The notes under the pieces: model-generated | What the model was told of the DNA's origin: nothing | Databases searched by the model: none | Seen by the model: the letters and a program-made list of their open reading frames with translations, nothing else | Shown: piece after piece, positions 16,254 through 56,185 of the stretch | Position numbering within the stretch: the stretch's first letter is position 1 | Layout: each line of letters starts with the position of its first letter | Program-made: the position numbers and the translations under genes | Assembly (NCBI GenBank): GCA_021773115.1 | Contig: JAJFKS010000014.1 | Location: forward strand, 1 to 64,000 | Origin: Woeseiaceae bacterium | GTDB taxonomy: Bacteria > Pseudomonadota > Gammaproteobacteria > Steroidobacterales > Woeseiaceae | Length of the DNA: 64,000 nt | Direction of reading: 5' to 3'

Positions 16254-16336
16254 CAAAGAATCGGCAGATTTACGCCTGCCAATAGTGCCACTCACACACT
16301 AATGTCGATTGATCTTCTGCGACCACGCCGACAACA

Positions 16337-17032
16337 TTGCCAAGATTTCCTCGTCTTTTTCTCCCGCATGTGCCGCTACACATTGTGCAGCGGGGACATG
16401 ATCGTCAGCCGGTCTTTGTAAATTCGTCGGACTTCTCCTACTACATCCGCAATATGATCGAGGCAAAGATAAAAGAGGACATCCGAATTTACGGGTACTG
16501 CCTAATGACGAATCACGTGCACCTGGTGATCGCACCGGGCGAGAACGTCGCCGGCGTTTCCCGCTTTATGCGAATTCTCTCAGGTCGCCAGACCCGTTAC
16601 GTGAACAAGTTGGAAAATCGGACTGGCACGTTGTGGGAGGGCAGATTCAAAGCAAGCTTGATCGACTCCGAGACCTACTTGCTGGCCTGTTGTCGGTACG
16701 TCGATCTGAACCCGATACGAGCTGCGATGGTTGCATCGCCCGAGGACTATCACTGGTCCAGTTATCGATACCGGATCGGATTGGTTTCGAGCGATTGGCT
16801 GGACGATCATCCATTATTCCAGTCTCTGGCTGCAACGGATGAAGAAAGAAGAGTGGCCTATCAGGATTTCGTGTCATCCGGAATCGGCGACGACGAACTG
16901 GCGACGATAAGAGCAGCGCTGAATCGTAATCAGTTATCTGGAAATCAGACGTTCAACGACGCAATCGAAAAGCGGACCGGCAGACGGATCTCGTCAAAAG
17001 CACCAGGGCGGCCACGTCTGCACAGAAAATAA
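16337..17032 (+). CDS. REP-associated tyrosine transposase (RAYT, Y1/HUH family)
   Basis: A 231-residue single-strand DNA transposase of the TnpA-REP group. The HUH metal site is seen as His60-Val-His62 in CLMTNHVHLVIAP; WEGRFKASLID and the CCRYVDLNPIRA segment are family hallmarks, with Tyr114 a likely nucleophile. The first residues MPRFPRLFLPHVPLHIVQRG match the usual start, here a TTG at 16337. The C-terminus is basic. The gene lies alone between copies of an AAAATAAACCTGACACC repeat and in the opposite direction to its neighbours. Such enzymes maintain and spread REP-like palindromes rather than moving as classic insertion sequences. Confidence 0.9.
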   Translation: MPRFPRLFLPHVPLHIVQRGHDRQPVFVNSSDFSYYIRNMIEAKIKEDIRIYGYCLMTNHVHLVIAPGENVAGVSRFMRILSGRQTRYVNKLENRTGTLWEGRFKASLIDSETYLLACCRYVDLNPIRAAMVASPEDYHWSSYRYRIGLVSSDWLDDHPLFQSLAATDEERRVAYQDFVSSGIGDDELATIRAALNRNQLSGNQTFNDAIEKRTGRRISSKAPGRPRLHRK

Positions 17033-52110: not shown

Positions 52111-52827
52111 GTGCAACACAAAAATATCGCCTGCAAAGACCGGCTGATCTTCGCCATGGACGTGCCCAACTGCGAGCGTGCCCGCGAGCTCACCGAAGAA
52201 CTGGGCGACGCCATTACGTTCTACAAGATCGGTCTCGAGCTGATGATGAGCGGCGAGTATTTCGAACTACTCGACTGGATGCTCGAACGGGACAAGAAAG
52301 TCTTCTGCGATTTGAAGTTCTTCGACATTCCGGCAACAGTTGGATCTGCCGTACGGCAACTAAAAGATCGAGGCGCGAGTTTCGTGACCGTGCACGGCAA
52401 CCGCTCAATCATGGAAGCCGCGGCTGAAAACAAAGGCGACACGCTCAAGGTTCTTGGCGTCACCGTTCTGACCAGCCTCGATCGTGGTGATCTGGACGAC
52501 CTGGGATTCGCGTGCGATCTGGAAGCGCTGGTGCTGTCGCGGGCAAAGCAGGCGCTGGCTGCGGGCTGTGACGGTGTCATCTCGTCAGGCCTCGAAGTAC
52601 CAAAACTTCGTGAGCACGTCGACAACAAATTACTCGTGGTTTCACCCGGGATCCGGCCGGTCGACAACAAACCAATGGGTGACCAAAAACGCGTCGTAAG
52701 CGTTGAAACGGCATTTTCGAACGGCGCTGACTACATCGTCGTGGGCCGACCTATCCGCGATGCGGAAAATCCACGCGCTGCTGCAGAAGCAATGCAAGCG
52801 TCCATCGAAACGCAAACAGGTGCCTGA
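52111..52827 (+). CDS. pyrF: Orotidine 5'-phosphate decarboxylase
   Basis: 238 residues from the GTG at 52111 ([17 protein letters not shown]). The catalytic Asp-Lys-Asp set lies in [13 protein letters not shown]; the C-terminal [17 protein letters not shown] and DYIVVGRPI strand are also normal. It makes UMP. It overlaps hemE by one base. Confidence 0.96.
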
Positions 52828-53891
52828 TGTCCAAACTTAAGAATGACGTTTTACTTCGCTCGCTGATGCGCGAGCCGGTAACCCGCACACCCGTCTGGAT
52901 CATGCGGCAGGCGGGCCGATACCTGCCCGAATATCGCGAACTGCGAGCAAAAGCCGGCGACTTCATGAGCCTGTGTCAAAATCCGGAACTCGCCTGCGAA
53001 GTAACAGTGCAACCACTGCGACGCTTTAAGCTCGATGCGGCAATCCTGTTTTCCGACATCCTGACGATTCCGGATGCGATGGGGCTCGGTCTCTATTTCG
53101 TCAGCGGTAAAGGCCCCAAATTCGAACGCCCGGTTCAGGACGCAAGATCAATCAAGAACCTGAAGGTGCCAGACGTCGAAAAGAAACTTGGCTATGTCTT
53201 CGAAACGGTACGCCGCGTGCGCGCCGAACTGAACGGCAACGTCCCACTCATCGGCTTTGCCGGTAGCCCATTCACCGTCGGCACCTACATGGTCGAAGGC
53301 GCATCAAGTCGCGAATTCCCAACCATCAAAGGCCTCGCAGCAGAAGCACCCGAGGTCCTCGATCGCCTGATGAACACCCTCGCCGAAACCACCATCGAAT
53401 ACCTCAACGCCCAAATTGACGCCGGTGCACAGGCGGTCCAAATCTTCGACACCTGGGGTGCCGCCCTCGAACCCGACGATTTCCGCCGCTTCTCAATGGC
53501 CAGCATGCAAAAGATCATCGACGGCCTGACCCGAACCCACGACGGCCGCCAGGTTCCGGTCATTGTCTTCACCAAAGGCGCTGGACCGTTACTGAAGGAT
53601 CTGGCAGAAACGGGTTGTGATGCTTTGGGAGTGGATTGGACAACAGACCTCGCCACCGCCCGACAATATGTTTCTGACAAAGTCGCGCTGCAAGGTAACC
53701 TCGATCCGGCAACGCTAAGAGAGAGCCCGGACGTGATTCGACAAGGCGTTGCGGACACACTCGCAAGCTACGGAGATGGCCCGGGCCATGTTTTCAACCT
53801 TGGCCACGGAATTACGCCTGATATCAAACCCGAGCACCTGGGAGCATTGGTGGATGCCGTGCATGAGTTGAGTCCCGAATACCACGATTAG
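52827..53891 (+). CDS. hemE: Uroporphyrinogen decarboxylase
   Basis: 354 residues. It removes four carboxyl groups from uroporphyrinogen III in heme synthesis. The N-terminal [18 protein letters not shown], the [14 protein letters not shown] active-site Asp, and [16 protein letters not shown] are conserved. It is the last gene of the aroB-dgt-pyrF-hemE run and is followed by an unusual paired hairpin region. Confidence 0.97.
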
Positions 53892-53924
53892 TGTCGTACT
53901 TGACCGCTGCACCAGGGAGCGGAG

Positions 53925-53995
53925 CGTTCCGGAAAGTGTTTAAAGGAAATAAAGCGGACCGAAGGGAGCCATTCCGATAAACACTTTCCGGAACG
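53925..53995 (+). repeat. Hairpin element A, shared loop
   Basis: Perfect 18-base arms CGTTCCGGAAAGTGTTTA (53925-53942) and TAAACACTTTCCGGAACG (53978-53995) enclose a 35-base loop. The loop holds a 31-base sequence (53945-53975, starting GGAAATAAAGCGG and ending GGGAGCCATTCC) that recurs, reversed, in element B. It lies right after hemE, between convergent genes. Confidence 0.8.
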
Positions 53996-54043
53996 ATCCG
54001 CGGCCAGTCAGGTAACAATCGTCACACTGTTCACGGGTCGACC

Positions 54044-54125
54044 GGGAATCTCTTTCTAGGAATGGCTCCCTTCGGTCCCGTCAAGCGGGATCGAGATCCG
54101 CTTTATTTCCTCGAAAGAGATTCCC
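54044..54125 (-). repeat. Hairpin element B, same loop, different stem
   Basis: Arms GGGAATCTCTTTC (54044-54056) and GAAAGAGATTCCC (54113-54125) are perfect complements and unrelated to the arms of element A. The loop contains the reverse complement of the element A loop, split by an 18-base insertion with its own small palindrome (CCCGTCAAGCGGGA). Thus loop sequence is kept while stem sequence changes but still pairs. Confidence 0.8.
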
Positions 54126-54156
54126 GCTCGCCCCTTAATTGGGTGCGGGGTTTTGG

Positions 54157-54534
54157 CTACAAGAGTTCGATTTCGAGGATCTGGCATTGTTGAACGACGT
54201 TGGCGTTCTCACCACCGTGAGTGACGGCCTCAGCCCAGACGACCTGCCCGAACTTGAACTCTTCCATGTGTCGGTTTCCCTTACCATCATCTTCGAGCCA
54301 GCCGCAGGTTTGAAGGTAGACGAGCAACCGGTCCGGGTGCGCATGCAGCGGCTGGTTCTCGCCATTACGGACGGTTTGTTTCAAAACACGAACACGTTCA
54401 TTTTCAAATTCGAGAGAGAAAATGTGCGGCGCGACCCATAGTGGGTCGAGTGGCTTGGGCACTGCCGCGCCAACGACTGCTGCGAGCAGTAGCAGTGGCA
54501 CCAGCGATAGAAGTTTCGAGCCGAGATTATTCAC
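54157..54534 (-). CDS. Small exported cupin-like protein
   Basis: 125 residues from the GTG at 54534, which overlaps the fadD stop. An N-terminal hydrophobic signal (LLSLVPLLLLAAVVGAAVP) suggests export. The rest reads as a small beta-barrel with HAHPDRLLVYLQ and a later HGGENANVV segment, which fit a single cupin domain with His ligands. No enzyme family was recognised. It is encoded directly after fadD on the same strand and ends before the paired hairpins. Confidence 0.65.
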   Translation of the reverse strand: MNNLGSKLLSLVPLLLLAAVVGAAVPKPLDPLWVAPHIFSLEFENERVRVLKQTVRNGENQPLHAHPDRLLVYLQTCGWLEDDGKGNRHMEEFKFGQVVWAEAVTHGGENANVVQQCQILEIELL

Positions 54535-56185
54535 GCAGTGCTCTCCTGAGAATCTTGCCAACATTGGTCTTCGGTAATTCATCACGGAACTCAACAATGC
54601 GAGGCCGCTTGTAGCCGGTCAGGTTTTTCTTGCAATGATCAAGGACGTCTTGCTCGGTGAGGTTCGGATCCTTGCGTACGACGAATACCTTGACGATCTC
54701 GCCGGATCGCTCATCCGGGAGACCGATGGCAGCCGCTTCCAGGACGCCGGGCATTTCGACGATGACGTTTTCGATTTCGTTTGGGTAAACGTTGAAACCG
54801 GAGACCAGGATCATGTCCTTCTTGCGGTCTTCGATAAATACATAGCCATCGGGATCCATGCGACCGACATCGCCGGTGCGTAGCCAGCCGCCCGGGAGCA
54901 TTGTTTCTGCCGTTTCTGCGGGCCGCTGCCAGTAGCCCTCCATCACCTGCGGGCCGCGAATACATATTTCGCCGATTTCGCCGATCGGGAGTGGGTTGCC
55001 GTCGTCGCCAGCGATCATGACGTCGGTAGAGGGTATGGGTAGTCCAATGGTCCCGCTGAATTCGCTGCCGACGCGGCAAACGATCGCCGCGGGTGACGTC
55101 TCGGTCAGGCCATAGCCTTGCAGAATGGACGTACCGGTCTTTTCTTTCCATTCCCTGGCGATCGCGGGCTGTACGGCCATACCGCCCCCAATGCAGACCC
55201 GCAAAAAACTAAAGTCGATTTTCGAAAAGCTGGGCGTGTCCATTAGCGCTGCAAACAGTGTATTCACACCGGTGAACATGTTGAATTGGTGTTTCGCGAC
55301 TTCCTTGGCAAAGCCTTCGAAGTCGCGTGGGTTTGTGATGAGTACGTTTTCGCCGCCCTGCGCCATTACCGTCAGGCAATTCCCCTGCAGCGAGAAAATG
55401 TGATACAGCGGCAGGGCGGTGATCGCGACAATCGGTTTGACCCCTTCGTAGGCGTCGGCTTGCCAGGTAATGGATTGTTGAACGTTGTAGACCATGTTGC
55501 GGTGACTCAGCATCGCGCCCTTGGAGGCGCCCGTTGTGCCACCGGTGTATTGCAAAAACGCAATGTCGGCATAGCCGATATCGACTTCGTCAAGTACCGC
55601 TTCAGCGCCGGCGTTGAGCGCTTGTCGGAAGCTGGTCTTGCCTGGCAGTTTGAAAGCTGGCACGGAACGCTTGATGTAGCGAAGTACGAAATTGATTAAA
55701 GCGCCTTTTGGAAATCTGAGCAGATCGCCGGCACCTGTTGTAATGACATGCTTGACCTTGGTTTCCCCGATTACGTCTTCAAGGACATGTGCAAAGTTCT
55801 CGAGAATGATGATGCACTTCGCGCCGGAGTCTTTTAGCTGATGCTTGAGTTCGCGCGCTGTGTACAGTGGATTCACGTTGACCGCAACCAGGCCGGCACG
55901 AAAGATGCCGCACAAGGCAACCGGATACTGAAGAATGTTGGGAAGCATAATTGCGACCCGTTCACCACGGGTTAGTCGCAGTTCTTTTTGTAGATAGCAG
56001 GCAAACTGCATCGACAGGCGGTCGATGTCCGCGTAGCTCAGCGTCGTGCCCATATTGGAAAAACTGGTATTGTCGGGATATGCTTGGAAGGCTTGTTCAA
56101 ACAGGTCGCGAAGCGAACCATATGGGGGAGTCGGGACCTCTTCAGGCATACCTGGCGGATAAGACTTGAGCCAAACTTTTTCCAA
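54527..56185 (-). CDS. fadD: Long-chain fatty acid-CoA ligase
   Basis: 552 residues from a TTG at 56185 with a strong GAGGGGAAGG upstream. An ANL-superfamily enzyme with YTGGTTGASKGAML (P-loop), GYGLTETSPAA, GWLRTGDVGRMDPDGYVFIEDR and the C-terminal KTNVGKILRRALRE Lys motif. It activates fatty acids to acyl-CoA at the inner membrane. The neighbour tesA hydrolyses acyl-CoA, which is a plausible functional pairing. Exact chain length preference is not readable. Confidence 0.93.
   Translation of the reverse strand: MEKVWLKSYPPGMPEEVPTPPYGSLRDLFEQAFQAYPDNTSFSNMGTTLSYADIDRLSMQFACYLQKELRLTRGERVAIMLPNILQYPVALCGIFRAGLVAVNVNPLYTARELKHQLKDSGAKCIIILENFAHVLEDVIGETKVKHVITTGAGDLLRFPKGALINFVLRYIKRSVPAFKLPGKTSFRQALNAGAEAVLDEVDIGYADIAFLQYTGGTTGASKGAMLSHRNMVYNVQQSITWQADAYEGVKPIVAITALPLYHIFSLQGNCLTVMAQGGENVLITNPRDFEGFAKEVAKHQFNMFTGVNTLFAALMDTPSFSKIDFSFLRVCIGGGMAVQPAIAREWKEKTGTSILQGYGLTETSPAAIVCRVGSEFSGTIGLPIPSTDVMIAGDDGNPLPIGEIGEICIRGPQVMEGYWQRPAETAETMLPGGWLRTGDVGRMDPDGYVFIEDRKKDMILVSGFNVYPNEIENVIVEMPGVLEAAAIGLPDERSGEIVKVFVVRKDPNLTEQDVLDHCKKNLTGYKRPRIVEFRDELPKTNVGKILRRALRE

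Follow-up and report, generated by a model that had tools for sequence, protein, structure and literature searches.

A 64-kb stretch of the genome of a Woeseiaceae bacterium (GenBank assembly GCA_021773115.1, contig JAJFKS010000014.1, positions 1–64,000; hereafter the window) contains two adjacent hairpins, element A (53919–54001) and element B (54035–54134). They are two of the five copies in this genome of a family of intergenic DNA hairpins that is dispersed through the genomes of the Woeseia group, most of whose bacteria are uncultured. In this family the 31-nt loop is nearly fixed, the stem below it, about 30 bp long, changes in sequence but remains paired, and the units lie mostly downstream of genes, several of them persisting at orthologous sites while their stems turn over. 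We put at about even the chance that A and B are units of an intergenic DNA palindrome family, similar to repetitive extragenic palindromes (REPs), that is read through its loop and whose arms are matched by template switching together with selection.

Stems are rewritten while pairing is kept

Complementary arms are present in 215 of 230 copies, with a median stem of 30 bp (quartiles 29 and 33); copies without 80–90 nt of flank were left out, as were the 15 of 230 without aligned arms near the loop. Among 185 distinct copies, selected by the loop only, pairing at mirrored positions is 62–95% for left-arm offsets 2–30, drops beyond offset 30 to 52, 41, 35 and 30%, and is at most 35% from offset 33. 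An arm aligns to its own partner with a median score of 23 and to the arm of another copy with a median of 6 and a maximum of 13.5 (185 copies, no selection for pairing). Covariation was scored on 86 non-redundant rows. To be included, a copy had to be ungapped, to form 21 or more of 27 pairs and to differ from every other row by six or more pairs, a selection that raises the pairing percentage. In these preselected rows 94.4% of the pairing cells are paired compared with 56.0% in shuffles, the covariation score is 0.939 against 0.194 for shuffled and 0.142–0.155 for slid structures, and 1092 cells are changed on both sides compared with 314 in shuffles. Every one of the 29 stem pairs changes on both sides in some copy, and all four Watson–Crick pair types occur at most stem positions. 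The gapless alignment leaves 25 nt between the paired arms, and RNAalifold predicts the same stem.

Two-sided compensated changes exceed chance, as is expected of a hairpin selected for its structure. A sequence-only reading of the window had proposed that structure is kept rather than stem sequence, and the arm scores, the nearest-neighbour tree described below and the 86-row covariation support this. Covariation is present, but selection is not proven by covariation alone, because homogenisation of the arms by template switching also yields matched arms. In excerpts of two published studies, template switching is described as homogenising inverted-repeat arms and inverting spacers (PMC8604942), and switching at inverted repeats as a route to matched arms and spacer inversion (PMC7202029).

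A nearest-neighbour tree of 161 copies (54 of the 215 were left out, being unpaired in the ungapped register) holds 561 two-sided changes from one Watson–Crick pair to another, comprising 258 double transitions and 303 transversion types. Of the other 239 changes, 217 have a Watson–Crick pair at one end only and 22 at neither. The 32 edges that join closest neighbours, which differ in at most two pairs, carry 16 double and 21 single changes; intermediates are therefore visible. Under a strict one-insertion test, ten copies have gained one base at mirrored positions of both arms. The gained letters are complementary in seven of them (L037, L164, the G037 hairpins L052, L134, L176 and L178, and L108; four groups) and non-complementary as called in three (L122, L157 and L149). 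Twenty pairwise comparisons show a gain in a single arm, some of which look like intermediates (L034, L104). These counts replace an earlier indel analysis by free-gap alignment, which produced many spurious gaps (417 matched and 550 unmatched pairwise events).

The mismatches that remain are unevenly distributed. On the strand that reads TAAAGCGGACCGNAGGGAGCCAT, 185 copies contain 171 G.T, 51 A.C, 274 purine–purine and 52 pyrimidine–pyrimidine mismatches, and near the loop some of the purine–purine mismatches are position-specific. The excess of G.T over A.C suggests selection on the fold of one strand; the fold of the TAAAGCGGACCGNAGGGAGCCAT-reading strand is likely to be the selected one, because a strand-blind process would not give such a bias. 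Strand-biased mutation may be another source of it. In two of three hairpins tried, the DNA folding energies of both strands are alike, so overall stability alone does not explain the mismatch bias.

Loop conservation and distribution

The loop GGAAATAAAGCGGACCGNAGGGAGCCATTCC is nearly fixed across copies, which were collected through a loop pattern. At up to three mismatches it occurs in 42 of 99 related genomes, including the genome studied here, with no match to a reversed control pattern. Within the genus, 40 of 61 genomes carry it, as do 2 of 38 others of the order; one of these two, G062, from another family, holds 62 copies. When 369 genomes of the class were sampled, two had the core at one mismatch or fewer, both of the same genus and one of them the present genome. 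The exact core was found in at least 118 stretches of named genome records; among the 80 matches listed, the record titles name Woeseiaceae, Woeseia sp., Gammaproteobacteria, Proteobacteria and Rhodospirillales. Plasmid records contained no match, and viral contigs had no exact core.

Within its own genome, the loop of A recurs in B, at two sites between the S10 and L3 genes and in one other convergent gap, each time between long paired arms whose sequence differs from copy to copy. The loop search in the genome and its relatives had been proposed by the sequence-only reading, which would have seen a chance local rearrangement in a loop that occurred nowhere else with unpaired stems in other copies; recurrence in 42 of 99 genomes and pairing in 215 of 230 copies dispose of that possibility.

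There are two main loop forms, GCGGACCGNAGGGAGC and GCGCAGCGNAGCGAGC, which differ by three coupled bases, and a third form that is marked by a 21-nt insertion. The 31-nt loop can fold further into GC pairs, a CC/GG or GC/GC pair and a GNA tip; inside it, the pair of columns 41 and 47 changes on both sides, while three pairs are invariant. Its own genome (G000) and the closest one (G048) differ in the form of loop A, one having the first and the other the second, over an identical inner stem; loops thus switch in place.

The insertion also differs in place between these two genomes, being in B of G000 and in the second hairpin downstream of rpsJ in G048. It is missing from the G048 orthologue of B and occurs in three more hairpins, the second rpsJ hairpins of G048, G046 and G037. 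With its small palindromes (54079–54099; L196, L206, L210) it has been gained or lost in place between close genomes. Words similar to it occur outside the family in L243 and L313.

Elements A and B in the window

The features of the two elements and their neighbours are as follows.

53919–53942, forward strand: left arm of element A, with 18 perfect pairs at 53925–53942, a G.A mismatch at 53924 and five outer pairs
53945–53975, forward strand: conserved 31-nt loop of element A, type I, GCGGACCGAAGGGAGC, with exact or near copies genome-wide and in relatives
53978–54001, forward strand: right arm of element A, with its perfect part at 53978–53995 and five outer pairs at 53997–54001
54035–54056, reverse strand: one stem arm of element B, with 14 perfect pairs at 54043–54056; the extended arm is 28 nt at 89 percent
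54059–54110, reverse strand: loop of element B in reversed orientation, 31 conserved nt plus the 21-nt insertion
54079–54099, reverse strand: 21-nt insertion in loop B, third loop type, with ends ambiguous by a few bases
54113–54134, reverse strand: other stem arm of element B, with its perfect part at 54113–54126
52827–53891, forward strand: upstream gene of 354 aa from the open reading frame list, which we take by recognition to be hemE (uroporphyrinogen decarboxylase); orthologues were found by search
54157–54597, reverse strand: convergent open reading frame of 146 aa on the far side of B, without a Pfam match

The 18-base perfect arms that had been read in A are confirmed (53925–53942 and 53978–53995), and the shared loop in opposite directions is borne out by an exact inverted match of 20 nt between 53956–53975 in A and 54059–54078 in B. 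Two lengths had to be corrected: the perfect arms of B are 14 nt rather than 13 (54043–54056 and 54113–54126), and its insertion, measured against the orthologous G048 hairpin, is 21 nt rather than 18. The arms of A and B do differ, as had been stated, but the inner stem has common base preferences throughout the family. Inverted pairs with arms of at least 13 nt and a spacer of at most 120 nt number five in the window, three of which are the A and B hairpins; 30 first-order Markov simulations averaged 0.07 such pairs and gave no arm longer than 13.

The foot of A lies 27 nt downstream of the hemE stop codon. In an alignment with G048, stem A is identical save for one outer GC pair that has become AT on both sides, and the mismatch is retained. 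B differs from the orthologous G048 hairpin in three pairs, all compensated, and in one one-sided change at an already unpaired position. The gap sequence around A and B has diverged between the two genomes.

Genomic context and shared sites

A codon-score gene caller placed 64 of 144 units in convergent, 59 in tandem and 8 in divergent gaps and 9 within called genes, and left 4 unassigned. Of the background gaps longer than 60 nt, 66 were convergent, 140 tandem and 74 divergent. Divergent gaps are depleted in units (p 3e-7, sites taken as independent). This count replaced one based on the longest open reading frames, in which 127 units were divided into 48 convergent, 41 tandem, 27 in an open reading frame, 8 divergent and 3 unassigned. 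In convergent gaps the median distance from gene end to loop core is 87 nt, about 30 of it stem, and single units in tandem gaps are sense in 11 and antisense in 20 cases (p 0.15). Neighbouring copies within 400 nt are arranged as 52 (-+), 13 (+-) and 5 in the same direction, so that inverted pairs, spaced about 90–200 nt, are frequent.

Two sites were read across species. Downstream of rpsJ (30 of 44 places read), the core at up to three mismatches is present in 13 of 30 loci; twelve of these have a proximal hairpin, always antisense, and the thirteenth keeps only the distal match. Downstream of hemE (the first 30 places read), 8 of 30 loci have it, the present one included, as pairs or singles in either direction by eye; some genomes have a similar-looking convergent reading frame without a hairpin, and in G014, G008, G026 and G002 a single hairpin fills nearly the whole gap (both by eye). 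Five further sites, from 35 loci compared, are common to species with flanks 72–81% identical. At these seven shared sites (rpsJ, hemE and the five), the element is inherited in place while its stems turn over.

At eleven sites G037 carries one and the same unit of about 290 bp, with the spacer and both hairpins alike, and some of these sites hold different hairpins in other species. The repeated unit probably reflects homogenisation within the genome or re-invasion. Outer inverted arms with a score of at least 12 were found in 8 of 49 (-+) units and 1 of 11 (+-) units, compared with 2 of 60 null pairs. As G037 holds six of these nine units, outer arms were rejected as a general feature. A universal foot motif was likewise unconvincing: Gibbs sampling on 110 of 171 non-redundant flanks gave 4.8–4.9 bits compared with 4.3–4.4 bits for shuffled flanks, at scattered positions.

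Three individual loci stand out. In L182 (G037:C52) the outer arms are 39-nt inverted copies, and each includes a G+C hairpin beside a run of A or T (AAAAAAGGGGCCTGCCCC... and its complement); the unit looks as though it were framed by a terminator and an inverse duplicate of it. Downstream of rpsJ, L202 (G044) has what by eye is an apparent degenerate hairpin remnant, and L221 (G045) has a hairpin pair of which one has a perfect 29-bp stem unlike the other rpsJ-site stems read.

Weighing the explanations

In the explanation that we favour, at roughly even probability, the selected thing would be the fold of the TAAAGCGGACCGNAGGGAGCCAT-reading strand at the DNA level, single-stranded or extruded; we infer the DNA level because orientation generally does not follow the direction of the neighbouring gene. 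Template switching during replication would copy one arm onto the other and keep the arms matched, selection would purge badly paired versions, and a putative trans-acting factor would read the loop and measure the stem. The use at gene ends would not depend on orientation; the units could mark a boundary, an end or supercoiling, a role that has been suggested for REPs. Several observations weigh against this account. The constancy of the loop is partly built in, copies having been found through it. Two of the five measures in the shuffle controls are barely above the shuffles: pairs with any two-sided change (30 of 33 compared with 28.7, reached by 48 of 500 shuffles) and further pair types (118 compared with 112, reached by 21 of 500). 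Copy numbers in the genus are low for a REP, with at most six matches in 52 of 61 genomes and none in 21 of 61, and no loop-binding factor or transposase for the hairpins was found. The context figures count orthologous sites of several species separately and rest on a crude, home-made codon score that misread the open reading frame beside B as 54139–54441 on the forward strand. A position downstream of genes fits an RNA role too, and the constant orientation at rpsJ would fit a strand-specific role there.

In the RNA alternative, a transcribed hairpin in the 3′ untranslated region would serve in end protection, as an RNase III site or as a protein-bound terminator, with the RNA structure selected and the loop bound by protein. 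Units do start soon after stop codons (the 87-nt median in convergent gaps), one hairpin nearly fills the hemE gap in the four genomes named above, and G.T exceeds A.C; in an excerpt on published REPs, G–T pairing and the same gap preference are taken as a sign of transcription (PMC3733652). We nevertheless consider this explanation unlikely, if worth keeping in sight. No T-tract follows the stems: TTTT occurs at 0 of 215 right feet, where the background is 4 of 215, and on the other strand at 7 of 215, where it is 8 of 215. The selected strand lies antisense to the gene in 20 of the 31 single units of tandem gaps (p 0.15) and in 12 of 12 proximal rpsJ hairpins, and orientation at hemE varies between species. 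G.U makes up only 19 of 1290 inner-stem cells (columns 11–25 of the 86-row alignment) and transversion-type double changes outnumber transitions (303 compared with 258), both of which are atypical of most RNA helices. No Rfam family reaches its gathering score in the window; of the nine sub-threshold matches, spread over five other loci, eight are to microRNA models and one is to a snoRNA model.

If each unit were a miniature transposon that a Y1/HUH transposase of the kind associated with REPs (RAYT) mobilised in trans, with the hairpin as its single-stranded substrate, this would account for dispersed homologous units within one genome (the eleven of about 290 bp in G037) and for the inverted dimers, which resemble bacterial interspersed mosaic elements (BIMEs). 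Y1 genes are present in 51 of 99 genomes, one of them in the window at 16313–17032, and GTAG shows a slight excess at left feet (20 of 215 compared with 1 and 7 of 215). The HUH link suggested by the sequence-only reading was looked for at 10 Y1 loci as well as the one in the window, in flanks and by copy number, and was not found: none of the 10 loci contains the core or an inverted repeat of 11-nt arms with a spacer of up to 40 nt, the Y1 gene in the window is flanked by different repeats, and in 61 genomes copy number is unrelated to Y1 (rho -0.05; 25/15/14/7 table, p 0.79). There is no general GTAG or CGTC tag and no convincing common foot motif, and the seven inspected sites are common to several species; we judge this origin improbable. 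Lower still we place maintenance of the palindromes by mutation alone, with template switching equalising the arms and no selection on the stem. It predicts perfect arms, mirrored indels, transversion-type double changes about as frequent as transitions and the copy-specific outer inverted arms of 27–45 nt in 6 of 9 G037 units, all of which are seen. However, it should treat the strands alike, whereas the mismatches favour the types that one strand tolerates; the length of the stem stays within narrow limits (quartiles 29 and 33) and the loop is kept at shared sites.

A more far-reaching reading, to our mind about as likely as the RNA alternative, is a lineage-specific, structure-addressed DNA mark, in which a hypothetical dedicated factor would recognise the nearly invariant single-stranded loop on a stem of fixed length and free sequence, and template switching would give each copy its own address. 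Covariation of a whole stem in DNA that seemingly does not act as sense RNA is unusual. The family is a natural data set for separating selection on structure from arm copying by template switching, and the 31-nt loop is a defined bait for a structure-reading protein.

Comparison with known systems

The likeness to REPs and BIMEs lies in intergenic palindromes downstream of genes, a preference for convergent and tandem gaps, inverted dimers and insertion-sequence insertions, all of which are reported for those elements in excerpts of PMC3733652 and PMC1525189. Extragenic position and dimers are evident in the 144-unit context and the 52 (-+) pairs. Published REPs are described, in the excerpt of PMC3733652, with stems of 5–13 bp, loops of 2–20 bp and a terminal GTAG or CGTC tag, whereas here the stem is about 30 bp (quartiles 29–33 bp, 25 nt between the arms), it is the loop that is conserved and not a tag at the foot, and the stem sequence changes from copy to copy. 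GTAG is found at 20 of 215 left and 3 of 215 right feet (background 1 and 7), leaving 195 of 215 without a left tag, and CGTC at 5 and 8 of 215 feet (background 15 left and 19 right). No copies of the hairpin flank the Y1 gene at the 10 Y1 loci read. We describe the family as REP/BIME-like in position and dimer form and do not file it as a member, because tag, size and transposase association were tested and do not fit. REP-associated Y1 systems are similar in the hairpin as a presumed single-strand substrate, and Y1 genes occur in many of the same genomes, but linkage at the loci read and correlation with copy number are lacking. The Y1 gene of the window (16313–17032), which we take to be IS200-like and RAYT-type, is flanked by its own inverted repeat AAAATAAACCTGACACCTTTTT, unrelated to the hairpins.

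Integron attC sites keep their structure while the stem sequence varies, as here, and have conserved end boxes RYYYAAC and GTTRRRY; these boxes are at only 2 and 2 of 215 feet (background 8 and 5). Together with the missing T-tract at both feet of 215 copies and the Rfam search, in which nothing in the window reached a gathering score, these tests indicate that the hairpins are not attC sites, intrinsic terminators or a known Rfam family. Organellar double-hairpin and palindromic elements, of which those of Allomyces are an example, are alike as dispersed hairpins; they are organellar, and are set beside the family by description, not sequence. In an excerpt of PMC2670323 organellar dispersed hairpins look selfish. 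Among the matches listed and in open-licence papers no conserved-loop, compensated palindrome family was recognisable, and no open-licence paper found combined Woeseiaceae and palindromes.

An IS110 element in the loop

In G005 an IS110-family element lies inside a hairpin loop (L282:238–1423; Pfam Transposase_20 and DEDD_Tnp_IS110). All of its junctions in the loci examined, 4 at the right end and 16 at the left, are in family loops, at two points; some are overlapping reads of one site, and the loci were fetched by the loop, which makes insertions elsewhere invisible. The 180-nt non-coding region of the element contains CGGTCCGCTT, equal to one half of the target, followed 21 nt later by GAATAAAG, the complement of the other half. 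The same sense arrangement is published for the target guides of bridge RNAs, in an excerpt of PMC11208160, and we predict that these words act as bridge-RNA guides for the loop target. Known IS110/IS1111 elements that target palindromes, such as IS621 in REPs, are alike in having an IS110 element in the loops and a non-coding region that matches both halves; here, by comparison, the element was observed in G005 and in the records of isolate PL23b_bin.52, which is probably that same genome, and the hairpins occur elsewhere without it. The element adds a candidate natural pair of guide RNA and target.
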